Below, piece by piece: positions 23,904 to 25,741 of a stretch of 64,000 bases of DNA (positions are counted from its first letter, which is position 1; the number at the start of each line of letters is the position of its first letter). A program made the translations under genes and the position numbers. The notes below the pieces were generated by a model, which was not told the DNA's origin, made no database searches, and was given only the letters and a program-made list of their open reading frames with translations. The DNA comes from Raineya orbicola (GTDB lineage: Bacteria; Bacteroidota; Bacteroidia; Cytophagales; Thermonemataceae), in contig NZ_NKXO01000017.1 in NCBI RefSeq assembly GCF_002843425.1, positions 1 to 64,000 of the forward strand. Direction: 5' to 3'.

Positions 23904-24899
23904 TCAGTGTTTTTTTTCCAAAAAATGTAGAAATTCAGTGGTATAGTTTGCTTTGTAAGAGCGTTGGGAAGGTTTATCAGCCATAAAGCGGTTGTAATTT
24001 TGGGAAAATACCTCGTAAGTGCCGTATTTACGCATAATTGTTTGAATTTTTTCTAATGGTATAATGCCTTCATTATTGTAGCTTAAAAAAATGTATTTGA
24101 ATTGAGCTTTGGCAATGATTTTTTCAAGTGTTTCGGGGGCTTTTTGTTTAGAGCAAAATAAAGATTTGTAATAATTGGGTCGTAAGCCTGTTTTGCCTTG
24201 TGGCTCAAAATGGTCATAAAGAGCAATAGTATTAAGTAAATGATAATTGCTACCATACTGGCGAGTATTGTAAGGCGGGTCTAAATATAAAATATCTCCT
24301 GATACCTTTTCTATTACTTTTTCGGCTTCGCCGTGATATACTTCATGAGTTTGATGATTGACTTCAAAATGAGCGGGTTCTAAAAAAAATGGTTTTTGAG
24401 CAGATTTTTTCAATTGCTTCAAAAAAGCACCATATACGGAAGCTGTATTAGCTACTTTATCCGCACTTTCTAAAAGAGAGCAAAGCAGGAAAAAGTATTC
24501 ATCTTCAGAAATGCTATTTTTTAAGTTTTCAATTTCTGTGCGTATAGCATCTATTTTTTTTCCGTTTGGGGCTGAAAAATAATTACGTAAGCTACCTTTT
24601 TCAGAGTAATTTTGGTATATAAATCCTTCTTTGCCTTCAAGAGTATTGAGATAATACAAATTTTGCGAAGAAACTTCTTGATGATTTTGGATATAATTTC
24701 TATTAAGCACAAAGGCATAATATTCAGTATCGCTGGCTATAATTTTTTTTACTTTGCTTTTGAAAACTCTTCCTACTACGCCTGTTCCTGCAAAAGCATC
24801 ATAAAAAATAGCTTTTGATAGCTTTTCTTGACCAACAACTTCCAAGATGGTTTCACGTATAAAGGGGATAAGTTTGTATTTTGAGCCAATATAGTTCAT
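23904..24899 (-). CDS. D12-class N6-adenine DNA methyltransferase of a restriction-modification pair
   Basis: A 331-residue methyltransferase. It begins MNYIGSKYKLIPFI, the usual start of the Dam-like D12 (alpha) class. SAM-binding motif I is DAFAGTG (34-40). Catalytic motif IV is LDPPYN (206-211), followed by RQYGSNYHLLNTIALYD, a block seen in methylases of the M.NlaIII/M.HpyI kind (CATG specificity). It methylates adenine and should protect the host from the linked nuclease. Its ATG overlaps the nuclease stop by 4 nt, so both are translated from one mRNA, nuclease first. The only CATG I found in the whole window is inside this gene (24344-24347). Specificity is inferred, not proven. Confidence 0.9.
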   Translation of the reverse strand: MNYIGSKYKLIPFIRETILEVVGQEKLSKAIFYDAFAGTGVVGRVFKSKVKKIIASDTEYYAFVLNRNYIQNHQEVSSQNLYYLNTLEGKEGFIYQNYSEKGSLRNYFSAPNGKKIDAIRTEIENLKNSISEDEYFFLLCSLLESADKVANTASVYGAFLKQLKKSAQKPFFLEPAHFEVNHQTHEVYHGEAEKVIEKVSGDILYLDPPYNTRQYGSNYHLLNTIALYDHFEPQGKTGLRPNYYKSLFCSKQKAPETLEKIIAKAQFKYIFLSYNNEGIIPLEKIQTIMRKYGTYEVFSQNYNRFMADKPSQRSYKANYTTEFLHFLEKKH

Positions 24900-25741
24900 A
24901 AGTCATTGGTTAGCAAGATAATAAAGCAAAAGGTCTTGTAAGTTATTCTACCAAGACTTTTGTGTTGATAGGAAAAAGTAATTTCTAAAGGTGTTCGTAT
25001 TGGGGCTTTATCAATAATGTGCTTAATTTGAACAGGTGTTATCCCTTCGTCCAAATATACTACAAAAAGGCGAGGCGATGCACCAAAGCGTCCTTCATCT
25101 TGGTATTGATATAAATATTTAGCTACTTCGGCAGGATTTTCCAAAGCAACTCTTTTCCATTGGTTGCCATATTGTTTTTTGAACTCATTTGTAGGACTTT
25201 TAGCTACTTTTTGGTCATAGCTAATACCATTGATGAAAAAATCTACGCCTCTGGTGTGGGAAAGTGTGGGGATTAAATCTTCGTGTTTTAAAAATAACAA
25301 AGTTTCTATAAAATCATTTCTTACCGTGTTAATTTCCTTAATTCTTCTATATCTTACGGCGGCTTCCTTTACTTGTTCGTCTTTTTGCAGGCGGCTAAAA
25401 CGATTATCTCCATTGATTTTTTGCACAAATTCGTCAAAAGCTCCTTGTGAAAAAGGCCATTTTACTTCGCCTAAACCTAACTTTTCCCACTCTTCTAACA
25501 ATATTTGTAAAGACCTTTCACCCTCTATCCCACTTGTAAATTTAGGCAATTCTTTGAACATTTCTCTAATAATGCCTTTGTGAGCTTCGTAATTCCATAT
25601 TTTTACAATTTTATCATAAGGATTACTTTCTTTGGGTAAGTTAAGTTTTTGCAAAAAAAGATTTGCATTGGTTTTATTGCCAAAAATTTTCTTTACTATT
25701 TTGCTATCAATGGATTTTTTTATGTCTCTTACATCAAACAT
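24896..25741 (-). CDS. Putative type II restriction endonuclease (PD-(D/E)XK-like)
   Basis: A 281-residue protein with no family I recognise by name. It is called a restriction enzyme because it overlaps the methyltransferase gene by 4 nt and holds a plausible nuclease centre: Asp167 ... Asp176-Gln-Lys178 in GVDFFINGISYDQK, of the PD-(D/E)XK form, with Glu73/Glu75 (EGERS) as possible upstream acids. It does not look like the HNH-type NlaIII/IceA nucleases, so if specificity is CATG the nuclease would be of a different lineage. A small helical N-terminal part (1-70) may bind DNA. It lies 8 nt from the crotonase gene upstream, so transcription probably comes from that operon. Confidence 0.65.
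   Translation of the reverse strand: MFDVRDIKKSIDSKIVKKIFGNKTNANLFLQKLNLPKESNPYDKIVKIWNYEAHKGIIREMFKELPKFTSGIEGERSLQILLEEWEKLGLGEVKWPFSQGAFDEFVQKINGDNRFSRLQKDEQVKEAAVRYRRIKEINTVRNDFIETLLFLKHEDLIPTLSHTRGVDFFINGISYDQKVAKSPTNEFKKQYGNQWKRVALENPAEVAKYLYQYQDEGRFGASPRLFVVYLDEGITPVQIKHIIDKAPIRTPLEITFSYQHKSLGRITYKTFCFIILLTNDL

Follow-up and report, generated by a model that had tools for sequence, protein, structure and literature searches.

The 64-kb window, by which is meant the whole stretch of DNA that was analysed, carries two overlapping genes, one for a D12-class adenine methyltransferase (MTase; gene M) and one for a 281-residue protein (gene R), in surroundings almost free of the tetranucleotide CATG. 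The question raised by this locus is whether the two genes form a CATG-specific restriction-modification (R-M) system and, if so, what kind of nuclease R encodes. Comparison of both genes with their relatives makes it highly probable that the pair is a CATG-specific Type II system, in which a PD-(D/E)XK-like nuclease of an unnamed family replaces the IceA/NlaIII endonuclease in one cassette. Type II systems and this cassette are known, and what is new is the candidate nuclease of an unnamed family within it.

The gene pair and its neighbours

On the minus strand R comes first, followed by M, as separate nuclease and MTase genes placed side by side (Table 1). The 4-nt overlap between a D12 MTase gene and a 281-aa gene claimed in the original prediction was confirmed, the ATGA being common to both. 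The end of an enoyl-CoA hydratase-like gene lies 8 nt ahead of R, and a gene for a 1092-aa surface-type protein lies beyond M (both named by inspection), the neighbours of the pair being ordinary chromosomal genes in appearance. The G+C content of R and M is 33%, compared to 38% for the window and 40-43% for the two neighbours, which suggests that the pair arrived by transfer.

Table 1. Positions of the two genes, their motifs and the CATG word in the 64-kb window
Feature	Position	Strand	Description
M gene	23904-24899	-	331 aa; D12-class N6-adenine DNA methyltransferase; placed in CATG-type clade by sequence comparison; M2 of the cassette
R gene	24896-25741	-	281 aa; candidate PD-(D/E)XK-like restriction endonuclease of an unnamed family
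ATGA, 4-nt R/M overlap	24896-24899	-	R stop TGA and M start ATG
Glu146 codon, R	25304-25306	-	Invariant in 15/15 close members and 12/12 rows of the wider alignment
Asp167 codon, R	25241-25243	-	VDFF strand; invariant in both alignments (15/15, 12/12)
Asp176-Gln177-Lys178 codons (D-x-K), R	25208-25216	-	D and K invariant in both alignments; Q in the 15 close members
DPPY catalytic motif, M residues 207-210	24270-24281	-	From alignment
RQYGSNYHLLNTIALYD block, M residues 213-229	24213-24263	-	Nearly identical in ICEA-linked MTases
Sole CATG of the 64-kb window	24344-24347	.	Inside the M gene of the pair itself

The methyltransferase

M was found to match PF02086 in Pfam (1.7e-42) and MTase_II (PDLC03257, 5e-123) in PADLOC, with a D12 profile and the DPPY motif both present. 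Reference MTases of the IceA/NlaIII type were obtained through a search for the ICEA nuclease (PF05315). As the phylum of the window gave merely an ICEA fragment in one of 395 genomes, the family Helicobacteraceae, to which the R-carrying locus L014 belongs, was chosen as the source (121 genomes); none had been found in seven genomes of the genus of L014 in a first attempt. ICEA was matched in 32 of the 121 genomes, and a homologue of M was identified beside or near it in all 20 regions inspected, some being split or truncated by a contig end. The near-full-length MTases adjacent to ICEA share 48-60% identity with M by blastp (up to 60-61% across comparisons), against 37% and 30% (blastp) for the two nearest D12 paralogues in the window's own genome; for the C15 paralogue the value in the alignment is 41%.

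Two trees were constructed, both with reading frames of <280 aa kept out. A quick tree (82 of 104 rows, the 22 omitted being unlabelled rows of <=140 bits) was inspected before tests were performed on a careful tree of 36 rows, which comprised all 13 R-linked MTases, 19 of the 26 ICEA-linked MTases (seven near-duplicates being removed) and four outgroup rows. From the latter tree were omitted the unlabelled rows, other viral rows, C23 of the own genome, L066 (an ICEA remnant), L073 (partial, from an R host), L227 (a copy of L016) and the frameshifted L017. The 32 R- and ICEA-linked MTases separated from the outgroup at 100/100, and within this group the two kinds were interleaved. A single clade was rejected for the R-linked MTases (p-AU 3.6e-7) and also for the ICEA-linked ones (p 0.0042), the tree thus recording an exchange of nuclease partners. 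M of the window paired, with moderate support (86/88), with one ICEA-linked group, which we take to be H. pylori or near kin, and the MTases of the R-carrying Helicobacter loci L014 and L016 were nested in an ICEA-linked clade at 100/98. These comparisons support the placement of M in the CATG-type D12 clade (M.HpyAI/M.NlaIII type), for which the ICEA-linked Helicobacteraceae MTases served as stand-ins.

The RQYGSNYHLLNTIALYD block had been read as a marker of CATG enzymes. This argument is weaker than had been stated: nearly the same block is present in the ICEA-linked MTases, and a changed form, RQYAPNYHLLETIAKYD, is found in a paralogue of the own genome that lies outside the clade. In five of the nine other R-linked MTases that were aligned (L004, L008, L010, L012 and L015) the block after DPPYN is paralogue-like (RQYA...ETIA), and because of this change in the recognition region specificity could vary among R hosts.

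The family of R and its putative active site

No match to R was found in Pfam (including ICEA), NCBIfam or PADLOC at E<=10, in agreement with the original prediction of a nuclease of no recognised family; a match to a non-nuclease family was likewise not found in these libraries at that threshold. A search of the PDB by sequence returned nothing beyond chance. A profile of the R family, built from 15 of its 17 loci with the broken genes of L016 and L017 excluded, did not align with the ICEA profile (hhalign probability 0.5%). As a control, the Pfam ICEA model was found to detect the ICEA gene at L002:2040-2663 (1e-78). The silence of PADLOC on R was dropped as a sign of novelty, PADLOC being also silent (E<=0.01) on the genuine ICEA nuclease of L127.

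Across the 15 aligned R members 87 columns are invariant, including E146, D167, D176, Q177 and K178, and E146, D167 and D176-x-K178 are also invariant in a wider 12-row alignment with remote relatives, the two alignments having four proteins in common. The predicted PD-(D/E)XK-like centre, consisting of Asp167 and Asp176-Gln-Lys178, is therefore present as residues that are invariant in all 15 close members. These E...D...D-x-K residues are found in an order of helices and strands that would fit PD-(D/E)XK endonucleases. The structure prediction that had been proposed for the nuclease gave an AlphaFold model of pLDDT 85 for the whole of R and 76 for its C-terminal part, and no convincing match was obtained from it. 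Foldseek of the PDB with full-length and C-terminal models of R returned no solved structure at E<=0.001, and with VIA of the PDB all rows had Z <5, the top ones being 2ynq_B (Z 4.7, rmsd 2.3, 51 aligned) and 8b47_B (Z 3.1, rmsd 4.1, 100 aligned). As no structural match in the PDB was convincing, we infer a PD-(D/E)XK-like fold for R from its residues only.

Sixteen relatives of R, with 39-58% identity, were identified in genome contigs, giving 17 R loci with that of the window (L002-L017 being the others), and the locus of each of the sixteen also contains an MTase gene of one of the two cassette types described below, M1 or M2. The records are labelled as Helicobacter, Pasteurella, Pyrinomonadaceae, Ignavibacteriales, a planctomycete, Pontiellaceae, Rikenella, several Patescibacteria and plain 'bacterium', labels which may err as 12 of the 16 records are titled MAG. 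Among the 121 Helicobacteraceae genomes R was found in three (one marginal), none of them among the 32 with ICEA, a separation that means little with so few R. No match to R was found in plasmids or in phages, nor in viral contigs searched with R alone and with the R alignment. Two viral relatives were reached solely via the MTase (L254:2140-4062 and L255:2124-4062, from IMG/VR); these share 31-35% identity with R and lie directly before an M2, downstream of which is a gene with a HATPase domain.

Remote relatives of about 220, 281 and about 370 aa, mostly from Bacteroidota, were found to retain the E, D and D-x-K residues, and the R profile gave 98.6% with the long (about 370 aa) type in profile comparison. 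The long R-like proteins (L087, L226 and L235-L245) adjoin other MTases in several cases: a D12 gene lies beside that of L087, weaker MTase matches adjoin those of L235 and L238-L240, and in L241 a D12 MTase and an R-like protein are joined in one open frame. No MTase gene was seen beside those of L226, L236 and L237. The shorter R-like proteins (281 and about 220 aa) were found beside an M1-type MTase in L230 and L232-L234, and in L229 and L231 M1 is accompanied by just one end of R. Together, R and its remote relatives look like one superfamily of putative nucleases that is nameless in the libraries searched. Among the matches listed from the open-licence PMC literature the R family is apparently undescribed, with UpaP162 as a possible exception, and we know of no R-family enzyme that has been assayed.

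A cassette shared with IceA

The MTase M1 is of the beta class (PF01555) and lies directly before R in 14 of the 17 R loci, the others being the window, L014 and L016. R and the D12 MTase, designated M2, occur together in 13 of the 17, M2 coming after R, with M2 cut short in L002 and broken in L017. M1 and R occur without M2 in L003, L005 and L009, and L013 stops at a contig edge. The window locus is the short form R-M2, with only M2 beside R.

The same M1 family (386-387 bits) was found directly before ICEA in L127 and L129, with a split reading in L133, and in L139 M1 lies further off, beside a divergent ICEA; M1 is thus present in four of the 20 ICEA regions. In L002 the order is M1-R-ICEA-M2; its ICEA gene is the one detected with the Pfam model at 1e-78, a small frame separates this gene from R, and M2 is truncated by the contig end.

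Additional genes and decayed forms were also observed among these loci. A gene for an AIPR protein is situated between R and M2 at L010:5702-7384, where it is AbiU-like by PADLOC, and at L012:5875-7569, and downstream of R at L005:6252-8006 and L009:5875-7563. In a Helicobacter locus (L016:4968-5871) M2 is intact and the adjoining R gene is broken. In Pasteurella atlantica (L017:5016-8459) R and M2 are both broken, yet CATG is found 13 times against 240 expected.

CATG avoidance and the R-M load of the genome

The prediction had noted by eye a single CATG in the 64 kb, and counting bore this out, as one was observed where the tri- and dinucleotide counts predict 154.9 (z -15). In the first 8.2 kb, for which about 14 GTAC and neither CATG nor GATC had been reported, 15 GTAC, 0 CATG and 0 GATC were counted. 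CATG is also far below expectation in 393.7 kb of the own genome (11 against 891 expected), a non-random sample that consists of the window and 20 stretches picked around MTase genes, and in this genome it is low in all ten flank classes of NCATGN.

As an argument for specificity the scarcity of CATG is weaker than had been stated, the gap being real and six other palindromes being similarly rare in the window, namely (observed/expected) GCGC (0/107), GGCC (2/172), GATC (4/152), TCGA (7/150), CTAG (9/152) and CCGG (11/90). The 393.7-kb sample is also poor in several 5-mers and gapped palindromes. GCGC occurs three times against 610 expected in about 394 kb of the own genome, in which at least seven tetranucleotide palindromes are nearly absent or strongly depleted. 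The samples from other R hosts gave CATG values of <=0.52 in 10 of 15 and mildly low ones (0.77-0.87) in five, and in many R hosts GATC and GGCC are low too. Controls from the genus of L014 (Helicobacter), four further genomes with 20 kb each, gave 0.27, 0.00, 0.65 and 0.09, and R was not found in these four among the matches listed. Among the 20 ICEA regions ten have no real CATG gap (0.87-1.42). According to the part of PMC4687349 that was available, about one true case in two shows avoidance, which is also found once a system has been lost. The use of word counts as decisive proof of specificity was dropped in view of the six other rare palindromes, the unseparated Helicobacter controls and the ICEA regions being split 10/20.

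The own genome has a very heavy R-M load. Six clear D12 MTase genes and about 20 N6/N4 MTase genes (after merging of 24 matches over the cut-off) were identified, roughly 26 in total, with no match to a C5 MTase. Two more tandem pairs of D12 MTase genes are present (C15:65077-67001 and C23:25412-27230; L022, L023, L024 and L026), and a member of the C15 pair clusters with plasmid-borne loci of Psychrobacter and Bartonella that hold two MTases. Neither an ICEA gene nor a second close relative of M was found in the own genome, and an M1-type MTase is absent from the sampled MTase regions, where the best match reached 65 bits compared to 343-463 for full-length R-linked M1. The avoidance of CATG is in keeping with a CATG system, and alone it cannot be assigned to this pair because of the six other palindromes that are similarly rare and the approximately 26 MTase genes.

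Proposed function and alternatives

It is proposed that M would methylate the adenine of CATG on both strands, and that R would act as a metal-dependent endonuclease with an active site of the PD-(D/E)XK type (E146, D167, D176-x-K178), cutting unmethylated CATG in incoming DNA. Cleavage and metal use are predicted for R, and the CATG specificity of M and R would be carried over from the IceA/NlaIII type. CATG is proposed for R because M2 tracks IceA, and R occurs with the same M2 and M1, at several places in the M2 tree and once beside ICEA; if M2 is CATG-specific, the host could tolerate R only if every site of R includes CATG. The R family would then alternate with the unrelated IceA/NlaIII endonuclease in a conserved cassette of M1, nuclease and the D12 MTase M2. 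It is likely that two unrelated families, IceA/NlaIII and R, have acquired recognition of CATG independently of each other and are interchangeable beside a conserved MTase pair, with L002 as a possible intermediate of such a swap and with the R family as a branch of a wider, unnamed nuclease superfamily linked to several kinds of MTase. A CATG-specific pair with a nuclease unlike the HNH-type NlaIII/IceA is in this way supported by the hhalign probability against ICEA, by the grouping of the MTase with ICEA-linked MTases and by the common cassette, and as a conclusion drawn from sequences it stands on comparative evidence that was absent from the first reading.

The most serious of the other explanations concerns the CATG gap, which might have been made by another R-M system, present or lost, with the pair being a recent arrival of the same or another site. 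This is compatible with the function proposed for the pair, and would be consistent with the number of MTase genes and avoided words in this genome, with the low G+C content of R and M, as in an acquired pair, and with avoidance as the possible trace of a lost system (available part of PMC4687349). The lack of an ICEA gene and of a second close M relative in the genome, and that of an M1-type MTase in the sampled regions, speak against such a system, and we consider it rather unlikely and infer that this pair, not another system, causes the gap.

A working R-M pair with a site other than plain CATG, either a longer site containing CATG or another short site to which M and R have drifted, is improbable. 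Some R-linked MTases do have a block unlike that of the ICEA-linked ones, and the low GATC and GGCC counts of many R hosts would agree with a different site; however, M of the window pairs with ICEA-linked MTases in the tree, and the depletion of CATG in every flank class argues against a longer site if this pair causes the gap. Least probable of all, and very much so, is that the 281-aa protein assists or regulates the MTase and is not a nuclease. The protein has neither a family match nor a fold match, as such a role would allow, but R occupies the place of IceA between M1 and M2, its acidic and lysine PD-(D/E)XK residues are invariant in close and wider alignments alike, and in L016 a broken R gene accompanies an intact M2, which is a usual route of nuclease decay.

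If the CATG-specific pairing of M and R is correct, two unrelated families of nuclease alternate in the same operon and serve one common restriction specificity. Such a case would be a natural experiment both on convergence in DNA recognition and on the exchange of R-M parts without loss of self-protection. An unnamed nuclease family that spans Helicobacter to Patescibacteria would gain a function, and the Ureaplasma enzyme UpaP162 would perhaps be explained.

Comparison with known systems

The IceA/NlaIII endonuclease is of the HNH type. The HpyAI / IceA1-HpyIM and NlaIII systems, compared via Helicobacteraceae relatives as stand-ins, resemble the pair in having a D12 MTase of the same clade (<=60-61% identity) with the nuclease gene directly before it, and in some genomes M1 in front, as in the R cassettes; they differ in their nuclease, which is ICEA (PF05315), to which R has no match. 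By the titles of cited works and a passage of PMC4687069, iceA1 has been reported to encode an endonuclease that recognises CATG, and hpyIM an MTase specific for it; the available text of one paper calls NlaIII CTAG-specific, against the title cited there, which is taken as a slip. The C. jejuni ST-677 locus, as described in the available part of PMC4687069, consists of fixL (MTase-like), an iceA1/nlaIII homologue and an hpyIM ortholog, and by that description apparently follows the same plan of M1, nuclease and M2, with a nuclease of the iceA/nlaIII type.

With PD-(D/E)XK endonucleases in general R shares the E...D...D-x-K residues, and it differs from them in being without a solved relative by sequence or fold. 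FatI is a CATG system, and it and CviAII, of Chlorella virus PBCV-1, are likened to the proposed pair by their site, not by nuclease sequence. M.CviAII acts at CATG, according to the available part of PMC7248222.

UpaP162 of Ureaplasma parvum OMC-P162 is a CATG endonuclease with a blunt cut; in the available part of PMC6191088 the authors report that it is not homologous to any restriction enzyme known and that InterPro gives it no endonuclease domain. The operon also contains its MTase gene, UPV_229, and 1,450 CATG are retained in 732 kb of the host (PMC6191088). Compared by this description only, UpaP162 and R possibly belong to the same family, and UpaP162 may represent a tested relative of R. 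If so, part of the novelty of the R family would fall, and the claim of CATG specificity would rise.
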